Assembly (NCBI RefSeq): GCF_003841485.1
Contig: NZ_REFY01000001.1
Span: 186,001 to 250,000 of the forward strand
Reading direction: 5' to 3'
From: Natrarchaeobius halalkaliphilus
Lineage (GTDB): Archaea > Halobacteriota > Halobacteria > Halobacteriales > Natrialbaceae
Length of the DNA stretch: 64,000 bases
The notes beneath the pieces were generated by a model, which was not told where the DNA came from, made no database searches, and saw only the letters and a program-made list of their open reading frames with translations. Position numbers and translations under genes: made by a program. Below, in pieces: positions 1 through 20,236 of this stretch. The stretch's first letter is position 1. Every line of letters begins with the position of its first letter.

Positions 1-168
1 TTCCTGTTCCGTAATTATGCCTTTGAAACTGATGACCCCTCGGCATACACCCTGATCCAGACTTTCGAAGACGAGTTTGGCTATGAGGTCTCTGGATCGC
101 AGTTTACCACTCTGTATCAAACCGGCGATACGAGTATCAACGCGGACTCATTCGAACGATATGACTGA
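1..168 (+). CDS. C-terminal end of an unrecognised protein (partial)
   Basis: Frame 1 is open from the first base to a TGA at 166-168 and gives about 55 residues rich in aromatic and acidic amino acids, ending DSFERYD. The gene starts outside the window. Its stop overlaps the ATG at 161 of the next gene by eight bases (ATGACTGA), which points to translational coupling and a shared operon. I recognise no family in this tail, so its role can only be guessed from its neighbour. Confidence 0.6.
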   Translation, partial: FLFRNYAFETDDPSAYTLIQTFEDEFGYEVSGSQFTTLYQTGDTSINADSFERYD

Positions 169-2140
169 CGAAAAACTTGACCTGTCGGGAACCAACCCGC
201 ACCGATCGGCAGCACCGGTTCGGCAATTGGATGCGACCGATTTAGACATCGCGACGCCTGCTACGCAGTCAGATGAGGAAACTGATATCTGGCGTGAGCT
301 TCGCGACGCAATCGACGCTATCTCCACAGACGGTGTCCGAGCCGTAGTAGCAACCGATGACGCAACAATCACGACCTCGATAGACATTCAGGAAGGATCA
401 TCCCGACCGGTACATGCCATCGAACTTGGTGTCTGGAAGGCGTATTCGGAAACCAGTTCTCCGATAACTCACGTACTAGTTCAGGCGGATGATGATTACA
501 CGCCCTGTGGTCGGTGCGTGCAGACGGTACTCGACTACTCGAACGACGCTCTCGTTCGTGTCATGGATCCCTCAGGAGAGACATACGATGAGCTCTCTCT
601 TGATCAGGGATCGCTATTGAGTGTGGGCAGAGGACCAAACGAGGACGGCGACCACCAAGACACCGATAATGATGGTGCTTCCGGAGAAGAAGAATCAGAC
701 TCGATGCCAATACCCGAGACACCACCGTTTATCGACATCGAGGTAAGTGACGACGTGGGGATAGAGTACGTCAGGCTGAACGCACCGGTGTATCACCTCA
801 AATACGAAACCTACGACCAGACATTCTGCGGGACGGACTTAACCCACCGTGAAACGGTCAGTAGCACCGAGGCACCGACTCTTTTGGATCCATGTCTGCG
901 CTGCCATGGTGAAACAAGCCAGCAGACAGTTGAAGAACAGCGCACCGAACTCCGGGCCCAACTCGCCGAGCAACTCAACCCCGTCCGTGCAACCGAGGAA
1001 GATGCAGCGTCATTCGATGATGATGAGCTGGCTGCGATTCTAAAGCACTTGCCCGTTGAGGTGCCAACGGGAGGGGACGATGCGGTTGCACTTCGGAGTC
1101 GACTCTCTCAGGCCATTGTAGATGTCCATGACGATCAGGAGAATCCCTCCACGTTTTCTCGAGAAGAGATGCAGGCTCTTCTAGCTGCTCTTGATGGCGA
1201 GGGTACTATCTCCGATGACCCACATCTACTTGTGCACACCTCCGACGGGCGTGTCGCCCGAGTTGCCCTGTCGCATCTGAGTCTACAACGTCGTGCGGGT
1301 AAAGGAGAGTTGGCGCTCTCACTGTCAGACAGTGAGGTACCTACCGCTACACTTGCTATGAGTCCTCGTGATCAACTATACGTATTCACTAACCTTGGAC
1401 AAGTGCATCAGGCCGATGCATACCAGGTCCCTTCGGTCAGTCGCGGTGGCGAACCATCACCGCTTTCGGAGATCCTCGACCTCAATGAAGACGAGACATT
1501 GCAGGCTGCCTTCACGTGTCGTAATCTCAACTCTCACGATTACGTAATCCTCGGAAGCAGAGACGGATACATTAAGCGTACGAAGACGGCGGACTTCAAA
1601 AACATCCATCGTGGCGGGATTCGAGCAGCTGAGCTAGAGGGGGATGACGTACTGAGAGAAGCCTGCTTGATGAATGACGGCCGGGACCTACTGATGACCA
1701 CACAGTACGGGCGGGCTATTAGATTCGATGGAGGCGACGTTCGGCCGATGGGCCGCGAGGCGCGTGGTGTCAAAGGAATTGAATTAGACGATGGTGATGA
1801 AGTAGTAACAGTCAATGTTGTTAATACCCAGGCCAAGCCTGAAGTTCTCACAGTCACGGAGGAAGGATACGGGAAGCGAACATCTATCACTGACTACCGA
1901 AAGCAAAGCCGAAACGGTCGAGGGCTGCTTGACATTTCAACAGATGATCGAAACGGTCCCGTTGTGGCTGTTGAGATGACTGCCTCTGATGATGAGTTCG
2001 TCACGATGAGTGAGGCAGGCCGTACGATTCATGCTACCGTCGATGACATTTCTGTCCTAGGGCGTAACACGATGGGGGTTGAAATTATGCGGCTGAATTC
2101 GGATGACCAGTTATCAAATCTATCTGTCTTCAATAACTGA
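161..2140 (+). CDS. Cytidine-deaminase-like domain fused to a GyrA C-terminal pinwheel
   Basis: A 659-residue protein. ATG 161 is preferred over an earlier in-frame start because it overlaps the upstream stop. Residues about 45-150 follow the order of a cytidine deaminase: strand, strand, helix with H85-A-I-E88, strand, then P115-C116-G-R-C119 and a helix. The usual signature is (C/H)AE, so the glutamate sits one residue late and activity is doubtful. C223 and the C245-x2-C248 pair may form a zinc site. Residues about 345-655 match the repeated blades of the DNA gyrase A C-terminal domain. They include a GyrA-box-like QRRAGKG at 376-382, the motif by which GyrA wraps DNA. There is no gyrase breakage-reunion domain and no catalytic tyrosine region, so this is not a gyrase. 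It probably binds or bends DNA; its cellular role is unknown. The family calls are by eye. Confidence 0.75.
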   Translation: MTDEKLDLSGTNPHRSAAPVRQLDATDLDIATPATQSDEETDIWRELRDAIDAISTDGVRAVVATDDATITTSIDIQEGSSRPVHAIELGVWKAYSETSSPITHVLVQADDDYTPCGRCVQTVLDYSNDALVRVMDPSGETYDELSLDQGSLLSVGRGPNEDGDHQDTDNDGASGEEESDSMPIPETPPFIDIEVSDDVGIEYVRLNAPVYHLKYETYDQTFCGTDLTHRETVSSTEAPTLLDPCLRCHGETSQQTVEEQRTELRAQLAEQLNPVRATEEDAASFDDDELAAILKHLPVEVPTGGDDAVALRSRLSQAIVDVHDDQENPSTFSREEMQALLAALDGEGTISDDPHLLVHTSDGRVARVALSHLSLQRRAGKGELALSLSDSEVPTATLAMSPRDQLYVFTNLGQVHQADAYQVPSVSRGGEPSPLSEILDLNEDETLQAAFTCRNLNSHDYVILGSRDGYIKRTKTADFKNIHRGGIRAAELEGDDVLREACLMNDGRDLLMTTQYGRAIRFDGGDVRPMGREARGVKGIELDDGDEVVTVNVVNTQAKPEVLTVTEEGYGKRTSITDYRKQSRNGRGLLDISTDDRNGPVVAVEMTASDDEFVTMSEAGRTIHATVDDISVLGRNTMGVEIMRLNSDDQLSNLSVFNN

Positions 2141-5147: not shown

Positions 5148-7466
5148 ATGAGTTCCTCTGAACAACGAACTAAGCTAACTCTCTTCTCAAGCACTTCCAC
5201 CGGGAAGTTGAAAAAGACGACACAAGTATTGCACTGTATTCGAGAGTATGGTCCTGACCTTTCTGAGGTGAAAGAGAGATATCAAAGAGAGTCTGGCACT
5301 AACACGAAATTAGCAGGCACTTGGATTGAGCAGTTGCAGGAGTTGGGTGTCGTCAGTACTGACTACAGTGTAGAAAGGATTCGGCTCACCGACCAGGGCG
5401 TAGATATTTTAGAATGGAGGAATAGCCCTTCGAAGGAACCGGTCCCCCTGTCAATGGTAAGGGCATTCGCAGAAACGTACGTTGGTTTCTATGATACGAT
5501 TGCACTTTTATCTGTAATCCCCGCAAGGGTAAGTCAGGTCAAGGAACTATTGAATACTCTGTATGACCTAAACTTAGAATCAAATACTCAGGCAAAGCAA
5601 CGTGTAGGCTGGCTCTTGTCGATGGACCTAGCAAAAAGGAACTCTGGTCATGAATATTCACTAACAGAACGTGGCCACGATGTGTATGAGGATTTTCAAA
5701 CAGAAATTGGACCCCCAGAGGCTTCTTCATTACTAGTTCCAGGTGAGGCGGGACAAAGTAGCACCACTGGTGAGGTTGTTGATTCCGGCCCCACTACTAA
5801 TGCAGATCCTAAGTCAGGAACTAGAAATTCGACTCCCGATGAGACCATCGACCTCCCCTTTCTCGAGGACAGACCACGCAAGGTAGTTTCAATTCACGTA
5901 GCTAAGTCTGATGGAACAGATGAGCGTTACGAACGGACCGTCGGAACGGATGTCACAATTGATGCGGCAGAGCCGCTTCCTCACAAAGAATATCAGAATA
6001 AAGCTGTACGGTATTGGAGTTGCGACCCAAAGCGAGAAGAACAGGTCGGAGACCTCGGGAGGGGGGACGTCGTACTGTTCCACCACCATGATGAGGGGTA
6101 TTTGTCCAGCGCCACAGTGCTCGACACCTTCCGAGGCAAAATGCAGGATACTGAGCATGAGCTCCATGTTCTATTTGAAGAAGTGTGCGAAGCTGCTGTT
6201 GAACGGGATGACCTATTCGAGGTTTATGGGTGGAGGTCACACCCAACTTCCCACTGGGCACGCATAGACCAGAAGGATAACGCTGCAATCTTAGATCAGT
6301 ACGAATCGATAGACGAATTCATCAGTGACACGAAAGGAACTGTTCAATTCAATTACTGGTCTTATCAGAATTGGTCGATCAAGCAAGACTTTGCGCGGCA
6401 GCTCAGTCGTCAGCTTCAGCGGAAAGGTCAGGTGATTCTATATGGCCCTCCCGGGACTGGGAAAACGTTCGTCGGTGAGGCATTCGCAAAGTGGTGGACC
6501 GGGAAGCAGACAGAAACGAACCCAACGACATATCAAACGGAGTCTGTCACCTTCCATCCTGCATTCTCCTATGAGGACTTCATCGAGGGGTACTCAGTCA
6601 TCGGTGGTGACAATGAAGAACCAACCAACGGGACAGATGAGGCACGTAGCGATACCTCCGTCAAGTCACCGTACGGTCTGAAACGTGGGGTATTCAAGCA
6701 GTTTTGCCGCACAGCTTCTCGAGCGCTGGATGCCACGCCAGACGGCCGGCTCCCACCCCGGTATGTCTTGGTGATCGACGAGTTGAACCGCGGAAACGTC
6801 CCTCAAATATTCGGCGAGATCATCACTCTTCTCGAGAAGGATAAGCGGGGAAGCAACCGCCAACTCTCACAGTCCGGTCAAGAGTTTGAGGTCCCAGAGA
6901 ATGTCTATATCATTGCAACGATGAACACCGCTGACCAGTCCATCTCGAAGCTTGACGCTGCATTGCGACGTCGGTTTGCAGCGATGTCCCTCGCCCCTGA
7001 GTACGATACGCTGTACGACTCCATAGAAGAGTTTCCGGATAACAAGCAGGATGCAGCGGAACTCGTCGGTTCATCACGGAACGATGCTGAAGCAATGATT
7101 GCTGCATCAGTGTTAGCACTCGAAATCATCAACAAGAAGATCACCGCTGTGCGAGGTCTGGGGAAGGGAAAACGAATCGGGCACGCCTATCTCCACCCAG
7201 ATGTCTGGATGACATCAAACGGAGACACCTCGACAGACACCGAATTAGCCGATGTATGGCGCTATGATATCCTGCCACTACTCGAGGAGTATTTCTTCGA
7301 TGACCTTGAGCAGTTGGAGCAGCGGGTGTTCGAAGGTGACGCAGAGTTCGTCAAGGAGGGGACGAACGATGTGCTCAAACTCACTCCAAGTGATCTTAAG
7401 GAGAATCTCCGTATGTTCGTGATGGACAATCAACACGAGATCGATATCGAGTTCGAAACTGAATGA
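5148..7466 (+). CDS. mcrB: McrB-type AAA+ GTPase of a type IV restriction system (system 1)
   Basis: A 772-residue protein from ATG 5148 (MSSSEQRTKL). It should assemble as a hexameric NTP-driven motor that recognises modified DNA and drives the McrC nuclease. Two winged-helix-like repeats occupy about residues 15-190. A linker follows, then a beta-rich PUA/EVE-like segment (about 250-400) that probably reads the modified base. The motor has Walker A GPPGTGKT (about 433-440), Walker B LVIDELNRGN (about 541), and MNTAD (about 590), which fits the McrB MNxxD GTP signature. An ALRRRF arginine-finger region follows. It overlaps mcrC by four bases (ATGA). The modification recognised cannot be read from the sequence. 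Confidence 0.88.
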   Translation: MSSSEQRTKLTLFSSTSTGKLKKTTQVLHCIREYGPDLSEVKERYQRESGTNTKLAGTWIEQLQELGVVSTDYSVERIRLTDQGVDILEWRNSPSKEPVPLSMVRAFAETYVGFYDTIALLSVIPARVSQVKELLNTLYDLNLESNTQAKQRVGWLLSMDLAKRNSGHEYSLTERGHDVYEDFQTEIGPPEASSLLVPGEAGQSSTTGEVVDSGPTTNADPKSGTRNSTPDETIDLPFLEDRPRKVVSIHVAKSDGTDERYERTVGTDVTIDAAEPLPHKEYQNKAVRYWSCDPKREEQVGDLGRGDVVLFHHHDEGYLSSATVLDTFRGKMQDTEHELHVLFEEVCEAAVERDDLFEVYGWRSHPTSHWARIDQKDNAAILDQYESIDEFISDTKGTVQFNYWSYQNWSIKQDFARQLSRQLQRKGQVILYGPPGTGKTFVGEAFAKWWTGKQTETNPTTYQTESVTFHPAFSYEDFIEGYSVIGGDNEEPTNGTDEARSDTSVKSPYGLKRGVFKQFCRTASRALDATPDGRLPPRYVLVIDELNRGNVPQIFGEIITLLEKDKRGSNRQLSQSGQEFEVPENVYIIATMNTADQSISKLDAALRRRFAAMSLAPEYDTLYDSIEEFPDNKQDAAELVGSSRNDAEAMIAASVLALEIINKKITAVRGLGKGKRIGHAYLHPDVWMTSNGDTSTDTELADVWRYDILPLLEEYFFDDLEQLEQRVFEGDAEFVKEGTNDVLKLTPSDLKENLRMFVMDNQHEIDIEFETE

Positions 7467-8749
7467 GTTCGAACCCAGATGAGGGCGAGGATGTAATCAC
7501 ACTCGAAGAGCGGAGCGAGACAGATCTGTCTGATTGCGGACTCAAAGATGATGATTTTCACTTCTTAGAGGAACTGGAGCACATCTCAAGCGCATCAATT
7601 ACTAAGCAAAAAGTTGAGATCGGCCCCTACATCGGGCACATCGGCCTTCCGAGCGGAGCGTTTCTCGAAGTGCTCCCGAAAAGCTCGCTTGACGGATTCA
7701 AACCTCTCTATTTCCTTGCGAAGGCTGGTCGAATAAGTGAGGAACTCGTCACCGGCTCGCAGGAAATTGGCTTCTCCGTCGGAGAGTCATTCATTGAGGT
7801 CGTTGGAGAGGTCTATGCAGAAGAGGTTAATCGGCTTCTCCAAGCTGGTATTCACAAGCAGTATGTTCCACGCCAGGCAGCAACAAATCACGTGAAGGGA
7901 AGGCTACGTGTTGCTGAGCAACTTTCCAAGCAAGAGCCGTATGCGACATCGTTCGAGAGCCAATTCAATGATCTCACGGCAGATATTCCACTGAACCAAC
8001 TCATTCTATTTGCGGCCGTTGAGGTGGCACGAAAGATTTCTGATAAGAGGGTTGAACGGCGACTGCAGCGTCAAATCTCGGACCTCCAACGAGTGGTGTC
8101 ACTGCCTCGTACCGCTCCTCATCCCAGTCAAATCACGCTGACCAGGGAAACACAGATGTATAAGCCGATTGTGAAATTCGCTGAGCAGATACTCAACGAG
8201 ACGTATATCGACACATTTGGCCAACGGGCTCGCCTCCTACAGTCAGTCTTGATCAACACTGAGACACTGTTCGAAGAGGTCGTTTATTCATTCGTAGCAG
8301 ATCTCATTCGCGGATCTAGATACATCATCCAGGGAGACGGCGATCCAGAATCATCAGTCAAGCGTGACATCGGACATTTATTGCGAGATAAGTTCGGCAA
8401 TGGCCTACAGGGAATGCAGCCAGACGTGTTCCTTCGGAGCCGAGGAAATCCCGTGTGGGTTGCTGATGCAAAATGGAGAGAGGATAGCTCGCCAAAACGG
8501 AATAATCTCTATCAGGTGACAAGCTATCAGCGGAAAGTGGGTGGGCCCGCAATCATGTTCTATCCAGAGCAGGGGGGACAAATCGAGACCGTGTACGAAC
8601 TCTCGGATGATGAGTACGACGACAGCTCGATTACCGAATTGCGTGTCGTAGAAGTCCCGCTTGGTGGGGAGAGCTATGAGGAGTTCGAGACGAAGGCGCA
8701 AAACAAGATTCGGACAGCCATGCAAGCCCAACTACCAGGACTAGCATAG
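7463..8749 (+). CDS. mcrC: McrC-type nuclease subunit (system 1)
   Basis: A 428-residue partner of the upstream McrB, joined by an ATGA overlap. The N-terminal part has the McrC pattern IGPYIGHIGLPSGAFLEVLPK. The middle has the family's NHVKGRLRVAEQL and the NDLTADIPLNQLILFA helix. The C-terminal nuclease is of the PD-(D/E)XK kind: the Asp of MQPDVFL near residue 319, then VADAKW near 333, in which the usual ExK acid is Asp, and a following Q-rich helix. McrC binds the McrB ring and cuts DNA. The length is normal and the frame intact, so the pair is probably functional. Confidence 0.87.
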   Translation: MSSNPDEGEDVITLEERSETDLSDCGLKDDDFHFLEELEHISSASITKQKVEIGPYIGHIGLPSGAFLEVLPKSSLDGFKPLYFLAKAGRISEELVTGSQEIGFSVGESFIEVVGEVYAEEVNRLLQAGIHKQYVPRQAATNHVKGRLRVAEQLSKQEPYATSFESQFNDLTADIPLNQLILFAAVEVARKISDKRVERRLQRQISDLQRVVSLPRTAPHPSQITLTRETQMYKPIVKFAEQILNETYIDTFGQRARLLQSVLINTETLFEEVVYSFVADLIRGSRYIIQGDGDPESSVKRDIGHLLRDKFGNGLQGMQPDVFLRSRGNPVWVADAKWREDSSPKRNNLYQVTSYQRKVGGPAIMFYPEQGGQIETVYELSDDEYDDSSITELRVVEVPLGGESYEEFETKAQNKIRTAMQAQLPGLA

Positions 8750-11179: not shown

Positions 11180-11713
11180 ATGACTGAAAGGAATCCGACG
11201 TTCGTGCGTCGGAAGTTCACGATCACAAAGGTACTTGACCAGATGTTACAGGAGATGGCCACACGGCACTACCAAGGGAACGTGAGTTTGTGCCTGCGTG
11301 CAGCTATTGAAAGTCACCGTGAGAACTTGGAAGGAGAGGGAGAGTTCGCCGCACACCAGATCAAACGGCAGTTAGACGGGCTAGAACAGCGGGTTCAGAA
11401 AATTCAAATGAATGTCGACGAGTTGCCTATCGAGACGGCTAAGAACGAGAAGAAGGGGATAGCACAGTCAGTCCAGTGGGGGATCAAGATGGCGGACGGG
11501 ATGCCAGCTATCGTTGAAGTACTGGACAATGCTTCGTCACCGTTGCGACTGGAGGATCTTCTCGAGCAAACTGAGTTGTCTCCACCACGGCTTCAGGCGG
11601 ATCTTTCGCAACTGGTCGACCACGGGCTTGTGGTCGAGACAACGGACGAGCAACAGAGATTCGGGCTCGCTGGTTGGGTCAATTCGCCAGGAGATGGAGA
11701 GACGGGACAATGA
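11180..11713 (+). CDS. Ribbon-helix-helix plus winged-helix regulator (module 1)
   Basis: A 177-residue protein from ATG 11180. The N-terminus (VRRKFTITKVLDQMLQEMATRHYQGN) looks like a ribbon-helix-helix DNA-binding strand and helices. A coiled stretch follows, then a winged helix at about 110-170 (LRLEDLLEQTELSPPRLQADLSQLVDHGLV). Its stop overlaps the recombinase start by ATGA. The same layout recurs at 13265, also directly upstream of a recombinase, so this looks like a dedicated recombination-directionality or expression regulator. That role is inferred. Confidence 0.65.
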   Translation: MTERNPTFVRRKFTITKVLDQMLQEMATRHYQGNVSLCLRAAIESHRENLEGEGEFAAHQIKRQLDGLEQRVQKIQMNVDELPIETAKNEKKGIAQSVQWGIKMADGMPAIVEVLDNASSPLRLEDLLEQTELSPPRLQADLSQLVDHGLVVETTDEQQRFGLAGWVNSPGDGETGQ

Positions 11714-12720
11714 ACCAGCCTAGCATGACTGATAGCTTTCGAGTACCGGATGACTACGCAAGAGAGTATTTAGCGCACGCAGCGGATCTGAAGCTATCTA
11801 CGAGTTCCACAGACACGTACGAGTCTCATCTTCGTGGCTATGTTGTGTTTCTCCACGACGGTGAGATATCAGTCCTTGATGCAGCGTTTACGGATGTAAT
11901 TGAGTTCGTTGAGGAATGTGTCCGGCGTGGAAATCGTCAGTCAACGATTGAAGGCAAAGTCGCGACGATTAGTGAACTGTACAAGTATATTCGGCTTCGA
12001 ACAGAGGTTGGCGATGAGCTTTCGTTGGAGCCACTGCGGTTGGACGACATTGATGTGAGTCGATATCGGACACCAGAACCAATTGAGCGGGAAGCCTTGT
12101 CGCGAGAGGAATTACGGCGATTGTTCGACGCGTTCGATTCCTACCGAAATCGACTCATGGCGGTGGTTGCAGTCGAGACAGGTCTTCGAAACTCGGATTT
12201 GCGGGAGCTTCGGATCGCGGATTTAGATTTCGATAATCTGGAGATTCATGTACTGAATCCCAAGGGGTCAGATCCGTATGATGTCCCGATGAGTGAGGAG
12301 TTGTCGTATGAGTTAGATTTTTGGCTTCGCCATCATCGGGCTGGCTACGCGAGCGCAGACAAGAGCCCGTACGTGTTTCCGAGCCAATGTGGCCTGAAGC
12401 TCGAAACGAATGGCAGCCTGAATCAGATTATTCGCGATGCAGCGGATAGGGCAGGGTTGCAAGAGGTAATCGGAGAATCACGGATTTCGAAAAAGCAGGG
12501 CACGGCAACGGAACCTGAGGACGAGACACGCCAGTGGCATCGTGTGACGCCGCATACGCTTCGCCACTCGTTCATTACGCTTCTCGCTGACGCGGGTGTG
12601 GACCTTTCGTATCGGCAGCTGGTTGCGAATCACGCAAGTGCAGAAACTACCCGTGGATACACCCATACCGCTGATGATAGATTTGGAGAAATTAGGGAAA
12701 TATTCGTTTCGCCTAGGTAA
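11710..12720 (+). CDS. Tyrosine recombinase (module 1)
   Basis: A 336-residue phage-type integrase. The catalytic set is complete: R160 (ETGLRNSDL), K185 (NPKGSDPYDVPM), H282 and R285 (TPHTLRHSF), H308 (VANHAS) and Y317 (TTRGYTH). An N-terminal SAM-like core-binding domain spans about 15-110. ATG 11710 overlaps the upstream stop by four bases. The enzyme should catalyse site-specific integration, excision or inversion through a 3'-phosphotyrosine link. It is the last gene of the run that begins with the Cas4-like nuclease. Confidence 0.85.
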   Translation: MNQPSMTDSFRVPDDYAREYLAHAADLKLSTSSTDTYESHLRGYVVFLHDGEISVLDAAFTDVIEFVEECVRRGNRQSTIEGKVATISELYKYIRLRTEVGDELSLEPLRLDDIDVSRYRTPEPIEREALSREELRRLFDAFDSYRNRLMAVVAVETGLRNSDLRELRIADLDFDNLEIHVLNPKGSDPYDVPMSEELSYELDFWLRHHRAGYASADKSPYVFPSQCGLKLETNGSLNQIIRDAADRAGLQEVIGESRISKKQGTATEPEDETRQWHRVTPHTLRHSFITLLADAGVDLSYRQLVANHASAETTRGYTHTADDRFGEIREIFVSPR

Positions 12721-12985
12721 AATCTGGTAATGTCTCCATTCATTGTAGATATTTCGGCAGATTGGGTTAGATTTCTAAATCTGTACTTTTGTGAAATGAA
12801 GTTAGGGATTTCAATCATCTATTTTCAAGCTCCTAACTAGATACTACATCCACATTACCTGCACAATTTTCTTACTTGCCATTGGAATACCACATTCATT
12901 GGGATAACTTCTCATATACGAAACTTACAAATTAAAATACAGCGCATATCCACTACAATTAAGTTCTTGGAGGTGGTATTACCGG
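12721..12985. other. AT-rich intergenic stretch
   Basis: About 265 bases with no open frame of note. It separates recombinase module 1 from the TnpB-like debris and module 2. I see no strong inverted repeat in it. Confidence 0.4.
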
Positions 12986-13126
12986 ATGTCTCACAGCGGA
13001 AACGCTGGACAGACCCACTCCGACGAGGCTTCCCCTTTTCCAACAGCCACAGGTTTGGTCTGTTTGTTGGGGAAGCCCCGGGGCGTTACAGCGCCCCAAG
13101 AACGGAGTTTCACCCATGAATGGTAA
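12986..13126 (+). pseudogene. Possible C-terminal remnant of a TnpB (IS200/IS605) gene
   Basis: The plus-strand frame from ATG 12986 reads a 46-residue tail ending RSFTHEW followed by TAA. Its style (HSDEASPFP, GKPRGVTAPQE, FTHEW) recalls the variable C-terminal tails of haloarchaeal TnpB proteins, which overlap the element's right end. No RuvC nuclease portion is present, so at most the 3' end survives. The call is from memory of the family and is not secure. Confidence 0.4.
12994..13097 (+). ncRNA. Structured RNA-like block (possible omega-RNA/right-end remnant)
   Basis: Three hairpins lie in a row. The first is CAGCG-GAAA-CGCTG at 12994-13007, a perfect stem with a GNRA tetraloop when read on the plus strand. 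The second pairs GGCTTCCCC (13027-13035) with GGGGAAGCC (13069-13077), with inner pairing of CAACA and TGTTG. The third is GGGGCG-TTACAG-CGCCCC at 13080-13097. Stems this dense are uncommon in this AT-rich tract. They match what is known of TnpB 3' ends, where the guide RNA overlaps the gene end. Expression is unproven. Confidence 0.45.
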
Positions 13127-13264
13127 AAACTCCAATCTAACGATCCAAGGGAAGAGCCAAAAAGATGTTGTGCGACGATCAACAGTTAATATTAATTCAG
13201 ATCCTGATGTCTCCTCGTTTGCGTTAGCCTGTCTCTGCTTAATCGTCTCTGCGGGGGGATTTCT

Positions 13265-13852
13265 ATGACTGAGGATGAGACAAGTTGTTTCGAGATTCAT
13301 CTAGATCCCGATAAAGCCAGTGAATCGGTGAAGCCAAACAGCACGATTACTCGTAGGCAAAAACAGTTACTCAACCAGATGGCCGACTCACGGTTCGCAA
13401 GCCGTAGCGAAGCACTTCGGGCGGCTATCGAAGGACTGCGAGAGCGTCTTGAAGGGGATGGAACCCGAGCGATTGATGAACTCAGACTTGATGTACAATC
13501 TTTGGAATCTTCTGTAGAAGAATTAGGAGAGGAGATTGAAACAATCCATTCTGCGTTAATCTCTCCGCAGATCAATTCGGAAATTACACAGGTTTCCGGA
13601 AATAAAGCAACTCTTGGCTCTCGGGATTCGAGACAATCCAATTGTAATAGAGTAGCTGATACTGTGCATAAATCGATGATAGAAGTCGCAGAACCAACGC
13701 TTGAGACTCTTGTGGACCATAGTGAGTTGTCGACAAGACAAGTCCACAGAGGACTTATGGAACTTGAAAAGAGGGAGCTAATCGTGTTTTCGGAGACAGA
13801 TACAGGCATTGAGTATCGACTTGCCTCTTTCGAGGGAAACTCATGGGACTGA
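13265..13852 (+). CDS. Ribbon-helix-helix plus winged-helix regulator (module 2)
   Basis: A 195-residue paralogue in layout of the protein at 11180. A ribbon-helix-helix-like N-terminus (STITRRQKQLLNQMADSRFASRSEALRAAIEGLRERLEGDG) leads into a coiled coil (about 80-115), then a winged helix (PTLETLVDHSELSTRQVHRGLMELEKREL). It overlaps the following recombinase by ten bases. Sequence identity to the module 1 protein looks low, so the two modules probably arrived separately or diverged long ago. It may control that recombinase. Confidence 0.65.
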   Translation: MTEDETSCFEIHLDPDKASESVKPNSTITRRQKQLLNQMADSRFASRSEALRAAIEGLRERLEGDGTRAIDELRLDVQSLESSVEELGEEIETIHSALISPQINSEITQVSGNKATLGSRDSRQSNCNRVADTVHKSMIEVAEPTLETLVDHSELSTRQVHRGLMELEKRELIVFSETDTGIEYRLASFEGNSWD

Positions 13853-14925
13853 GCGCTGGATCTCATGAGGGGCAGTCGGTGCAATGCCCGGTTTATGAGC
13901 AAGCGCGGCAAAACCCGGAGTGGCAAGACTTGCTTTCAGGCCCAGTTTGTACAGAACCAAAATGCGGTCATCTAATAAATCGGGTCGTGAATAAAGCTGG
14001 CTATTGGTCTGATTCTACTATCCGTAAGTATTGCTACGCCGGTTCTCACTATATCATTTATCTGCACGATCAGGGAAAGACCACTTGTGACGCGGAATAC
14101 GAGGATGTGGAGAGGTTTTTCGCTAAGCTATCAAAAAGGAAACTTCGCAAAAACACATATATGAATTATCGCACAGCGATAAACCATATTTATACATCAA
14201 TCGCATTGAGCCCAGATCATCATTCGTATCTCTCTGCACAGAAAATTAACGAATGGCTTAATTTGGAAGAATTGCCAACTAGGAAGCAATTAGAGCGAGA
14301 ATCGTTATCCGAGGAGGAAGTAGAGAAATTATTCGAGGAACTGACTTGCTTTCGTGACCGATTAATGGCTCAGTCAGCTATTGAATGGGGTGGTCGGAAT
14401 GAAAGCCTTCGAGCACTGAAAACCAGTGACGTGAACTTGGGGACTCAAATAGTTCGTTTGAAGAATACAAAATCTGGTGGGACATACCCAGTTCCGATAT
14501 CTGATAAACTGACGATGTTGCTACGACATTGGATAAATGTTGAACGCAAAGCGTACCTAGTATCTAGCGAAAACGATTATTTGTTCCCGAGTCGCAGGGG
14601 CGGCTCTCTTTCGGGAACCTCATTCTCAGAAATGGTTCGAGAAGCTGCCGAAGAAGCAGGAATTCAGAAAGTCATTGGTACGATCAAACACACTGAGCGT
14701 CAAAAGGAGGCGTTTGGGAAAGAGAAGAGAAACTTTTATCGAGTGACTCCTCACGCTTTACGGCATACGTTCAACGAATTACTACGAGCTCGCGGAATTC
14801 CTCGAGAAGTTCGAAGTGACGCGCTTGATCATTCGAGTACTGATGTGACCAAAGAGTTCTATGAGCATTCTACTGAGAATTATCACAGCCAAATAAGAAG
14901 GCACTTTTCAGACATGTCCTTTTAG
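13843..14925 (+). CDS. Tyrosine recombinase (module 2)
   Basis: A 360-residue integrase with a complete active site: R185 (WGGRNESL), K210 (KNTKSGG), H304 and R307 (TPHALRHTF), H330 (LDHSS) and Y340 (KEFYEH). The N-terminal 50 residues hold three Cys (CPVYEQ, CTEPKCG), an unusual extension that might bind metal. AT-rich codon use marks it as foreign. It is coupled to the regulator upstream and followed by IS debris. Confidence 0.82.
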   Translation: MGLSAGSHEGQSVQCPVYEQARQNPEWQDLLSGPVCTEPKCGHLINRVVNKAGYWSDSTIRKYCYAGSHYIIYLHDQGKTTCDAEYEDVERFFAKLSKRKLRKNTYMNYRTAINHIYTSIALSPDHHSYLSAQKINEWLNLEELPTRKQLERESLSEEEVEKLFEELTCFRDRLMAQSAIEWGGRNESLRALKTSDVNLGTQIVRLKNTKSGGTYPVPISDKLTMLLRHWINVERKAYLVSSENDYLFPSRRGGSLSGTSFSEMVREAAEEAGIQKVIGTIKHTERQKEAFGKEKRNFYRVTPHALRHTFNELLRARGIPREVRSDALDHSSTDVTKEFYEHSTENYHSQIRRHFSDMSF

Positions 14926-15099
14926 CCGTCACTATATGGATGAGAGTCTGAGGAATGAGTAGGAGGTAGCGAGAAGTGCTCATACAACTCGTCAACCCGT
15001 TCAGAGAGACCTCAAACGTGAATTGCGATGAGTTTGGGGAACGAGCGCAACCCAACCCAGTTAGGGTGTTCAGGGTGCATCTCGATCCAATGGAATTGT
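14926..15099. other. Short intergenic stretch
   Basis: Nothing recognisable. It links the recombinase to the decayed transposase. Confidence 0.3.
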
Positions 15100-15523
15100 C
15101 GGTTTGGAAGTCGACTTACTCGTCGAATTACTCGGTATTGATCTCTCACAGCGTAATTTGGAGCTATACGTGAACGCTTAAAGGAGCTAGAGAGACCCGC
15201 CGACGTCCACGAGAACGTGTCCCCGCGACGGCGTTCCTGCATCGACTCACCACGAAATATAATCTTGGCGAAGCAGAGTTTCTCGTCGATAGTGGCGGCT
15301 ATCTGACTTCCTTCCTCGCCACAACTTGAGTGGTCAGCTCAAATATAATGAGCGAAACCACGTCGAAAAGGTTTCAGATTGTCTCAATGGAGATCTTTTA
15401 TTCCGTCTGGCGGTGTGGACAGTCCAGCCAGCGCTCGGTGCGCTCAGACGGTTTAGACGCCACTACAACACGATTGACAGAATCAAGCGCTCAATAGTCG
15501 GATACCAGTCGGGAAGCTACTAA
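15100..15523 (+). pseudogene. Decayed IS transposase (IS6/IS240-like DDE type)
   Basis: The pieces read in more than one frame as a transposase. VDLLVELLGIDLSQRNLELYV comes first, then FLVDSGGYLTSF, then ERNHVEK and a tail RRFRRHYN. These match the spacing of D...(R)N..EK...H.YN in DDE transposases of the IS6 type. An internal TGA near 15328 and at least two frameshifts kill it. No terminal inverted repeats are obvious, so it is an old fragment. Confidence 0.6.
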
Positions 15524-15653
15524 ACTATACAATCTCTTTTAATTGTATTTGATAATCGTCTCTACCATTTTGAGTTTGATTGTAGACAATTCGATTCTCA
15601 ATGGTCACTGAATACCCATTACAGTTCTATTAAAACAATTTCTTGGAGCTGAG

Positions 15654-15707
15654 GTGGTCACTGAGTGACCACTCACCAGAGAACTCTCTGAAATGGCATA
15701 ATTTCAG
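15654..15707. promoter_or_regulatory. Palindrome and second inverted repeat upstream of a recombinase pair
   Basis: Positions 15654-15672 form a perfect 19-base palindrome (GTGGTCACT-G-AGTGACCAC). Its half TGGTCACTGA also occurs as a direct repeat at 15602. A second inverted repeat, CTGAAAT (15688-15694) with ATTTCAG (15701-15707), follows. Both lie 45-100 bases before the start at 15750, where an operator or recombinase arm-binding site would be expected. Confidence 0.5.
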
Positions 15708-15749
15708 TAGGAGATTCTCTCCCAGTCGAATAATTGCAGGGGTGGTACT

Positions 15750-16655
15750 ATGACCTGCTTTGAGCAGGTCGAGGAAACTAGTGGCTTTGAGTCTCTCGAC
15801 AGTGCGGTTGAATCCTACCTGAGTGAATTATCAAGTAGTGTACCAGACTCTACTTTTTGGTCACATCAAACTGTAATCACTAAACTCAGAGAGTGGATTT
15901 CAGAACCCAGTTCCTCTGAAGCCTGGTTGGAAAGTCACCAATTATGCCAATTTGTTGAAGACCTAGCAGAGAACACTGCTCAGGATATTACTACCATCTG
16001 TGGACATATAAACACATTAATAAATTTTCAATCATTCATCCACCAAGAAGATCCTATTATTCTCAAAGCAAGATTGCTCTTGGAGGTTGAGTCATCTAGC
16101 ATACTAGTGTATGGCGAGATCGGTAAACACATTCTCGGCATCTCTACTGAGGTTAATTTCCAAAACCTATCCGATCGCCTTTCGCCGTTGGTCACCTACT
16201 TCCGTGAACGCCAGTTTGGTACTCGAGGCCACGCATATGTAGAACTCATACTTGATACATGTAGTCGACCAGGATGTGTGCGAAATCTCGAGCTTGAGGA
16301 CTTCAATTCGGATAACGATACAGTCACAATCTCGATTCCAGAAACGCATCTCGTAAGCAGTGCCGGGCTCGTCACACAGAGAGTTGCAAATATTTCTCCA
16401 GAGACTTCTGAAGCCCTTGAAGAGTTCATAACCTATGGACGGAAAGAGCCAACAGCAGCCACTAATAGACCACTATTGACAACATCTCATGGAAGGGCGA
16501 GTGAATCGACACTTCGACGGGAAGTCAAACAAGCCAGTGGGAACGCAGACGAATATCCTCATGTATCGACTCCTCTTCCACACGATCAAGTTAGCTGCGT
16601 AGTGCCCAGTGAAATCTGGCAGTACTCAATTTTACAGCATCTGGAGGGACAATGA
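15750..16655 (+). CDS. Catalytically degenerate tyrosine-recombinase-like protein
   Basis: A 301-residue protein with the general build of an integrase: an N-terminal helical core-binding part, then LILDTCSRPGCVRNLELEDFN, which mimics the TGLR..E...L segment. The HxxR box and nucleophilic tyrosine region are absent; the C-terminus (PHDQVSCVVPSEIWQYSILQHLEG) does not restore them. It overlaps the active recombinase downstream by ATGA. A non-catalytic partner or accessory subunit is plausible; a decaying paralogue is the alternative. Confidence 0.6.
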   Translation: MTCFEQVEETSGFESLDSAVESYLSELSSSVPDSTFWSHQTVITKLREWISEPSSSEAWLESHQLCQFVEDLAENTAQDITTICGHINTLINFQSFIHQEDPIILKARLLLEVESSSILVYGEIGKHILGISTEVNFQNLSDRLSPLVTYFRERQFGTRGHAYVELILDTCSRPGCVRNLELEDFNSDNDTVTISIPETHLVSSAGLVTQRVANISPETSEALEEFITYGRKEPTAATNRPLLTTSHGRASESTLRREVKQASGNADEYPHVSTPLPHDQVSCVVPSEIWQYSILQHLEGQ

Positions 16656-17782
16656 ACGAGAATATTGTCCGTCTGTTATCGGAGATCGATGATCCAGAGA
16701 CTATCGAGAAAGTGCTGGAACAAACGGATGTAAGCAGTATGTCCCACGAGAAAACCAATCGCAATGGATTTGCTCGAGCTACCCTCTCTGATCTCTACAA
16801 GCGATTTCTCTCGCGCAGGCAGAATCGGAGCCCGTCAACGCGGGCCCAATACAAGCGAACGATTCCTCAATTCGTTGAATTCGCAGAAGACAACGACATT
16901 ACGAACCCAGTAGAAATTTCTTCACCGTTGGTTGATGCGTACGTCGACTACTTACAGTCGGAATATGACTCCGACGCAACGATCCTTACGTATACGAAGA
17001 ACGCACGCACATGGCTTCGGTGGCTCAGCCAACGGGAACTATGCGACGAATCAATTTACAGGATCCTCGATAAGGAGGAACTCGGTCTGACTCCAAGAGC
17101 TCGTGACGAGGCGATTCCGGAATCTGAAGCCACAGGTCTCCTTCAACGACTCCGGCGACGTCGACGAGGTTCTGGTATGCATGCTCTCACAGAGGTTCTC
17201 TGGAACGGTGGACCACGTATTGGTGGCGTTCACTCTCTTGATGTCCCCGATTTTGATCCCGAGAAGAAAGAACTCCGCTTCCGTCATAGACCGGAAACAG
17301 GGACGAGGCTAAAGAATGGTAACAAAAACTCGAACACAGCTGGTGATGGTGAGCGAAACATCGTGATAAAAGACGAGGTCATAAGCGCAATTCAATTGTA
17401 TATCGAGACAGAACGGCCAGACGTTACTGACGAGTACGGCCGAGAGCCGTTATTTGCGACAGAATACGGACGGGCTTCTCGGTCGACACTTCGTCGATGG
17501 GTGTACGAAGCTACGAGCTGTCGCTGGAATCCAAAAGATGCGGATGAGTGCTCGTGTGATGGTAGCTGTAATCCTGATTCAAGCGTATGCCCGGAGTCAT
17601 ATTACCCACATGCGATCCGTCGAGGATCGATTGTCAGCCATCTCAGCGGTGGCCTCAGGAGAGAACGAGCAAGCGAGCGATTTGATGTCTCTGTGAAGGT
17701 GATCAAGAAGCACTACGACCCTCGTACAGAACAAGACCGTCTCAACGATCGACGCGAAGCAGTCAAGCAGTCGTGGAATTGA
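16652..17782 (+). CDS. Tyrosine recombinase paired with the degenerate paralogue
   Basis: A 376-residue integrase. Active-site residues are R189 (WNGGPRIGGV), K221 (RLKNGNK), H320 and R323 (YYPHAIRRGS) and Y355 (VIKKHYDPR). The second His position is not obvious. Between them sits a Cys-rich insert (C290...CSCDGSC...C313) likely to bind zinc. The same class is found at 26034, which shares SPHPVRRGS, HYDQR and the Cys insert. It is co-transcribed with the gene at 15750. Confidence 0.8.
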   Translation: MNENIVRLLSEIDDPETIEKVLEQTDVSSMSHEKTNRNGFARATLSDLYKRFLSRRQNRSPSTRAQYKRTIPQFVEFAEDNDITNPVEISSPLVDAYVDYLQSEYDSDATILTYTKNARTWLRWLSQRELCDESIYRILDKEELGLTPRARDEAIPESEATGLLQRLRRRRRGSGMHALTEVLWNGGPRIGGVHSLDVPDFDPEKKELRFRHRPETGTRLKNGNKNSNTAGDGERNIVIKDEVISAIQLYIETERPDVTDEYGREPLFATEYGRASRSTLRRWVYEATSCRWNPKDADECSCDGSCNPDSSVCPESYYPHAIRRGSIVSHLSGGLRRERASERFDVSVKVIKKHYDPRTEQDRLNDRREAVKQSWN

Positions 17783-19402: not shown

Positions 19403-20236
19403 ATGAGCCCAACAAATGAGCCAGAGATTCAAAGGAAGAGTCTATCGACGCGCGAATCCCGAACTCTCTCGCGACTTGCAAGCGAAGGACGGCAGATCAT
19501 CACTATCGATGATATCGAGGATACACTGGACATTCCTCGAAAATCAGCGAAGGACATGGCGTACTCTCTCAAAGAGAAAGGCTGGTTGGAGCGTCTCACC
19601 CCCGGAAAGTACATGATCCTGCCGCTCTCTGCTGGAGAGAAGGCAGTATATACAGAACACGAGTTCGTCATTGCCTCAGCACTCGTGGATCCGATGTACG
19701 TCGGCTACTGGAGTGCGATGAATCATCACGGTCTGACGGAACAACTATCGCGGACAGTGTACCTTGTGACGACAGAACGAGTGCAACCACGCGAGATCCA
19801 TGGTGTTGAGTATCGGCCGGTGTCGGTTACTGAGCAGAAATTCTTCGGCTATCAACCGTCAGCGGTCGGATCGACGCAGGTAAACATCGCCAGCATCGAA
19901 AAGACGCTCGTCGACTGCGCCGACCATCCCGAGTTCTGTGGTGGAATCGGCGAACTCGTCAAAGCGATGCAAAGAGCGACGGAAAAGCGTTGTTCGTGGG
20001 AAACCGTCGTCGAATATCTTCGCCAAGTTGGGAATGGTGCTGCAACGAAACGCATCGTCTACCTCGCTGACCAACTCGATATCGATCTCCCGGAGTACCG
20101 GGATCTCGTCGAGAATTTTACGACTGGATATCCACTTCTCGATCCAACTCGAGAAGCGACGGGTACCCGAGACAGCAAGTACCAGCTGCGGCTGAATGTA
20201 GAACCTGAAGCGTTCCTTCCAGACGACTTTGCATGA
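19403..20236 (+). CDS. abiEi: AbiEi-type antitoxin
   Basis: A 277-residue antitoxin of the AbiE (type IV toxin-antitoxin) kind. An N-terminal winged helix (ITIDDIEDTLDIPRKSAKDMAYSLKEKGWLERLTPGKYMILP) is followed by the AbiEi core, including YVGYWSAMNHHGLTEQLSRTVYLVTTER and IASIEKTLVDCADHPEFCGG. AbiEi normally represses its own operon and counteracts the toxin without binding it. ATG 20233 of the toxin overlaps its stop by four bases. The frame is intact. Confidence 0.88.
   Translation: MSPTNEPEIQRKSLSTRESRTLSRLASEGRQIITIDDIEDTLDIPRKSAKDMAYSLKEKGWLERLTPGKYMILPLSAGEKAVYTEHEFVIASALVDPMYVGYWSAMNHHGLTEQLSRTVYLVTTERVQPREIHGVEYRPVSVTEQKFFGYQPSAVGSTQVNIASIEKTLVDCADHPEFCGGIGELVKAMQRATEKRCSWETVVEYLRQVGNGAATKRIVYLADQLDIDLPEYRDLVENFTTGYPLLDPTREATGTRDSKYQLRLNVEPEAFLPDDFA

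Follow-up and report, generated by a model that had tools for sequence, protein, structure and literature searches.

The fusion gene and its parts

The window analysed here, a 64,000-nucleotide stretch of the genome of Natrarchaeobius halalkaliphilus, opens with the end of a gene that we call X and with a gene for a 659-residue protein, in which a deaminase-fold domain (residues 40-152), a Cys/His stretch with helices (203-345) and a gyrase-type pinwheel (346-657) follow one another. Its features, in window coordinates, are as follows.

161-2140, plus strand: whole gene for the 659-aa fusion of pseudo-cytidine-deaminase, zinc site, helical region and GyrA C-terminal domain (CTD); intact open reading frame with full-length homologues in two other haloarchaeal genomes, L035 and L036 (=L067)
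1-168, plus strand: 3' end of gene X (202 aa; whole gene G000:C1:185560-186168), overlapping the fusion gene by 8 bases
278-616, plus strand: pseudo-cytidine-deaminase domain, residues 40-152 (profile/hhalign alignment, domain model, fold match)
413-424, plus strand: H85-A86-I87-E88, with the zinc His retained and I87 at the catalytic-Glu position of cytidine deaminases (CDAs)
503-517, plus strand: P115-C116-G-R-C119, with the two Cys of the zinc site, unchanged in 15/15 relatives
767-916, plus strand: putative second zinc site (H212, C223, C245, C248), residues 203-252, seen in alignments and common to deaminase-less pinwheel proteins
923-1195, plus strand: helical linker region, residues 255-345 (alignment; low-confidence helices in the model)
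1196-2131, plus strand: six-bladed GyrA C-terminal beta-pinwheel, residues 346-657 (Pfam, NCBIfam and PDB matches, alignment)
1286-1306, plus strand: GyrA-box QRRAGKG, residues 376-382, of which Q376, R378, G380, K381 and G382 are invariant in five free-standing pinwheels

The reading frame, its start and the motifs H85-A-I-E88 and P115-C-G-R-C119 are as a first-pass annotation of the sequence had described them. We take the ATG at 161 as the start because the same 8-base overlap with X (ATGACTGA/ATGAGTGA/ATGAATGA) is conserved at all six junctions that were checked; a TTG at 77 is an unlikely start, since the ATG at 161 lies within this conserved overlap, where X has its stop. Residues 203-252 found no relative in Pfam or the PDB, and we infer that this Cys/His stretch binds zinc. 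The full-length AlphaFold2 model has low confidence outside the deaminase domain and is usable for topology only.

Operon setting

The fusion gene is the last in an operon that lies mostly upstream of the window and reads PbeA-PbeB-PbeC-PbeD-DNA methyltransferase-X-fusion gene. The helicase PbeA and the ATPase PbeC match their PADLOC profiles with E-values of 1.5e-223 and 2.1e-229, and PbeC carries the CxC-type hook sequence KCICGE. The putative PbeB (72 aa) and PbeD (149 aa) were assigned by size, order and homology: both genes are conserved and correctly placed, and the PbeD-sized one gave a weak match to dnd_assoc_4, below the cut-off, and no PADLOC match for PbeD. The methyltransferase matches N6_N4_Mtase (E 5e-32), its motif IV (TSPPYW) preceding motif I (FDPFSGSGTT). 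To go by its TSPPY motif, the product may be N4-methylcytosine.

In the order of PbeA, PbeC and the genes of PbeB and PbeD size, the locus agrees with the published PbeABCD or CxC-ATPase-DndE systems, for which methyltransferase-linked forms have been described (PMC6459918; PMC10853773). The experimentally described PbeABCD antiviral system relies on phosphorothioation, whereas the present locus lacks DndC. No DndC was found in the host genome or in 14 of the 15 genomes with family members; because DndC is absent, the self-mark is likely to be methylation rather than phosphorothioation. Loss of DndC as a mark that sets pseudo-deaminase genomes apart from other Pbe genomes was rejected, as both groups mostly lack it. 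PbeABCD has also been read as a CxC-ATPase-DndE system that in some cases carries methyltransferases and a gene named 'MTaX1' (PMC10853773). X, which has no relative in Pfam, NCBIfam or the PDB, is possibly this MTaX1; its family is the neighbour of a DNA methyltransferase in restriction-like clusters of no fewer than three kinds (Pbe, McrBC-like and GHKL-ATPase).

A cytidine deaminase fold without its catalytic glutamate

Taken as a single sequence, the deaminase domain is marginal (Pfam E 0.017, below the cut-off; NCBIfam cyt_deam E 4.8e-4). A family profile of nine relatives, by comparison, matched the Bacillus CDA 1ux1 in the PDB with an E-value of 3.5e-14; in most of the haloarchaeal genomes searched it also matches what appear to be housekeeping CDAs. 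Comparison with 63 haloarchaeal CDAs by hhalign gave 99.4%, with about 110 columns aligned. The AlphaFold2 model of the domain (pLDDT 86.6, pTM 0.83) has an alpha/beta deaminase fold, whose best PDB match is mouse CDA (TM 0.77) and whose top matches are CDAs, and it places H85 and C116 directly before helices 2 and 3, where the CDA zinc ligands stand. The profile search and the structure prediction therefore recover the deaminase fold that had been proposed for residues 40-160, and on profile and model the almost certainly CATALYTICALLY dead deaminase domain is real by both fold and descent. With the tetrameric cytidine deaminases (TIGR01354; 1ux1, 2fr5) it shares the fold, the three zinc ligands and the aligned columns; it differs from them in having Ile for the catalytic Glu, in scoring under the curated cut-offs and in not keeping the ribose-binding N-x-E stretch (D75 and a gap in P0001 in the hhalign alignment).

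The loss of the catalytic residue is shared by every relative compared. Among 15 relatives, which amount to about eight clearly distinct sequences since six L039-type copies are near-identical, H85, C116 and C119 are invariant and the catalytic-Glu position is always Ile, Leu or Val, while E88, which the first-pass annotation had singled out along with the zinc ligands, is Glu in 14 and Arg in L163. The annotation had suspected a dead site from the spacing of HAIE. The suspicion of a dead site holds, but its cause is a substitution: an insertion or altered spacing was rejected, as the alignment with CDAs is ungapped there, and I87 stands opposite the catalytic Glu in the PDB CDA alignment, which is independent of the haloarchaeal panel. 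That panel was chosen by a pattern including HAE, so that HAE in 63/63 is true by construction; a second Glu follows (HAEE) in 62 of its 63 members, and E88 is therefore this inherited second Glu.

These observations bear directly on whether the domain could be an active DNA or nucleotide deaminase, one that introduces mutations into viral DNA or depletes nucleotides and in which E88 stands in for the lost Glu. The retained CDA fold and zinc ligands and the Glu one residue on in 14/15 relatives would speak for such an enzyme; against it, E88 is the second Glu of an ordinary HAEE and is replaced by Arg in L163, and the catalytic position is without exception hydrophobic. A CDA that lacks its catalytic Glu has its activity destroyed, and the loss of this residue makes an active deaminase very unlikely. 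The DNA-targeted deaminase of the first-pass annotation is thus not upheld, and the pseudo-deaminase is, to judge from the alignments, almost certainly catalytically dead.

A gyrase pinwheel apart from gyrase

The C-terminal half is recognized from the single sequence as GyrA_C (PF03989, E 1.4e-56, six blade matches) and is matched by the GyrA-CTD structure 1zi0 (E 2.4e-44), which confirms the earlier assignment of a pinwheel with a GyrA-box to residues 340-659. The fusion protein thus possesses the GyrA-box-bearing C-terminal pinwheel of DNA gyrase subunit A. No match was obtained for the N-terminal breakage-rejoining domain of GyrA; the NCBIfam GyrA model scores far below its cut-off, and its alignment begins only at model position 476. 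Gyrase had been described as absent, which is true of the window but not of the genome, where GyrA is encoded at C2:375525-376463. The pinwheel shares with gyrase GyrA-CTDs the six blades, the GyrA-box and the blade arginines, at about 40% identity to the host's own GyrA-CTD. Unlike that of gyrase, it is preceded by a deaminase fold and a Cys/His site in a protein lacking the breakage-rejoining domain, and it belongs to a branch of its own: in an unrooted tree, with some long end branches, one branch separates the free-standing pinwheels from all host GyrAs (support 100/97).

The arginines that matter for DNA binding have been established for the Salmonella CTD (PMC7210945). Mapped by hand through the PDB alignment, R612, R716, R766 and R817 correspond to R428, R532, R584 and R635 and are all present; R667 corresponds to H483, at a position that is also variable in haloarchaeal GyrAs. 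Since the GyrA-box and the DNA-contact arginines are retained, DNA wrapping by the pinwheel is plausible, and it is the better-supported half when set against the DNA-topology sensor that the first-pass annotation had offered. A GyrA-CTD apart from gyrase has a parallel in Gac of Borrelia burgdorferi, which acts as a DNA-binding protein; Gac, however, arises from an internal start inside gyrA and is neither fused nor part of a defence operon (PMC10127594).

All 116 haloarchaeal genomes sampled have a GyrA pinwheel, and a second GyrA_C occurs in only three of them, each time linked to Pbe. Two further free-standing pinwheels were found beyond this sample (G219 and G299), and all five adjoin pbeA/pbeC. 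An alignment shows that 57 GyrA-conserved columns are kept in every one of the free-standing pinwheels.

Distribution and modularity

The fused deaminase-pinwheel protein was found in three of the haloarchaeal genomes searched. Such rarity could be taken as a sign that the fusion of a cda-like gene with a piece of gyrA arose by chance, or is decaying, and has no function. The three copies, however, are only about 37-39% identical, yet all have open frames and the same domain order, and the free-standing pinwheels have kept their GyrA-conserved columns. A functionless fusion is therefore extremely improbable; the deaminase/pinwheel protein is real, neither chance nor artefact.

The same set of genes is present in about a dozen haloarchaeal loci. 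X lies upstream of the pseudo-deaminase in 15/15 loci examined, and a methyltransferase is found in or beside the same run in all 15 (in a divergent operon in L163, downstream in L035 and L036). The defence setting and the coupling to the upstream gene had both been anticipated, and are borne out by this constant order and by the PbeABCD-methyltransferase operon. In the loci examined the pseudo-deaminase always has X before it but not always a pinwheel, to which it is fused in the three genomes only; an extra GyrA_C is missing from eleven pseudo-deaminase genomes. Deaminase-less pinwheel proteins with the Cys/His stretch, in turn, adjoin pbeA/pbeC in L037 and in L038 (=L128, the Halorhabdus tiamatea plasmid pHTIA). 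Among genomes with a close PbeC, 10 of 20 have X and the pseudo-deaminase; among the remaining ten loci, a large SPPY methyltransferase-like ORF lies close to several, and DndC is present in one genome. In L063 and L064 the set of methyltransferase, X and pseudo-deaminase has a GHKL-like ATPase gene (weak match) in place of Pbe, and in L065, L066 and L163 X stands with a methyltransferase and McrBC-like genes, without the pseudo-deaminase. The pinwheel and the pseudo-deaminase are each dispensable to Pbe loci, and the loci look like a PbeABCD core combined with modification modules that can replace one another, X and the pseudo-deaminase being part of one such module.

Neither the fused nor the deaminase-only proteins had a match when viral contigs were scanned and phages searched. 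Of two scans of genome contigs, one was empty and the other returned only the Natronomonas aquatica copy.

This distribution could also mean that the protein is an accessory of the methyltransferase, forming with X its specificity or targeting subunit, with a pinwheel that adds DNA affinity only and no role in restriction. In the Pbe-less loci L063 and L064, too, the pseudo-deaminase follows X and a methyltransferase, and the 8-base gene overlaps suggest co-translation. On the other hand, the deaminase-less pinwheels adjoin pbeA/pbeC, and the stretch examined there contains neither X nor a matching methyltransferase, which ties the pinwheel half to Pbe; in L163 the pbe operon includes the pseudo-deaminase, and the methyltransferase belongs to the divergent one. 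We regard a purely methyltransferase-linked role as rather unlikely.

In another reading the protein is a sensor or regulator that would activate the Pbe complex, either when its pseudo-deaminase has bound a free nucleoside or nucleotide or when its pinwheel responds to DNA supercoiling. Nucleotide-sensing defence systems exist, the zinc ligands are invariant, as expected for a retained ligand pocket, and the pinwheel is intact. But the N-x-E stretch with which CDAs bind ribose has gone, and the stand-alone pseudo-deaminase works without a pinwheel in most genomes, so that we consider a sensor unlikely.

A proposed role in PbeABCD-type defence

From the anatomy of the protein and its linkage we infer, with about as much confidence as doubt, that it is a non-catalytic adaptor which wraps or handles DNA for a methylation-marked PbeABCD-type antiviral system. 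The fusion and the linkage speak for joint action of the two halves in a single assembly. The methyltransferase would mark self DNA; the zinc-stabilised pseudo-deaminase may dock without chemistry, its partner being X, the methyltransferase or both, or else the target base; and the pinwheel would wrap the DNA that is scanned by the PbeC/PbeD complex. On unmodified viral DNA, such wrapping could help to retain the complex and stall replication. A clamp or wrap fits the report that PbeABCD halts viral replication without cutting DNA (PMC6459918), a view that is disputed, as the HKD nuclease of PbeA has been argued to cut (PMC10853773).

A bolder version of the adaptor would make the pseudo-deaminase a base reader. 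Having lost catalysis and its hold on free nucleosides, it would use its zinc pocket to check a flipped cytosine, at the exocyclic amine, for the mark of the linked methyltransferase, with the pinwheel wrapping unmarked DNA and stalling viral replication without cutting. We offer this as a distinctly speculative proposal; if true, neither the reading of methylation by a deaminase fold nor the use of a gyrase wrapping wheel as an immune effector would have a precedent.

Text searches of PMC6459918 and PMC10853773 found no mention of a deaminase or gyrase domain. The domain pairing is new, and the protein appears to be a hitherto undescribed accessory in a defence system of known kind. Because it is conserved and linked to Pbe, the GyrA wrapping domain offers a concrete physical handle, wrapping or clamping, on how PbeABCD may stop viruses with no visible cutting of DNA. 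Likewise, the pseudo-CDA family that keeps the zinc ligands, has lost catalysis and accompanies a methyltransferase and X is an apparently undescribed component of methylation-based defence forms.

Mobility and neighbouring genes

The X and pseudo-deaminase genes of L039-L043 and L164 are near-identical across six genomes from four families. ParA and TRAM-domain genes lie near these copies, and an integrase gene in L129; together with the near-identity across four families, such neighbours point to a recent spread by way of plasmid-like elements. Close to the intact gene, L039 (10983-11324, with CGAY for CxxC) and L164 (8627-8808) each have another pseudo-deaminase-like copy that has decayed. 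On the pHTIA plasmid (L128, 16693-19586), the pbeA-like gene lies beside an IS66 transposase and seems to have been truncated or disrupted.

About 3 kb downstream of the fusion gene, window positions 5148-8749 hold a tandem of a McrB-like AAA_5 gene and a McrBC-family gene (PF10117), likely a second restriction system. McrB- or McrBC-like genes also adjoin Pbe or X loci in L128, L065, L066 and L163. Further on, four successive ORFs that by eye resemble tyrosine recombinases (11674-12720, 13843-14925, 15750-16655 and 16652-17782) form a row, at 11674-17782, that suggests a mobile island. An ORF at 19403-20236 resembles, again by eye, an AbiEi-type antitoxin.
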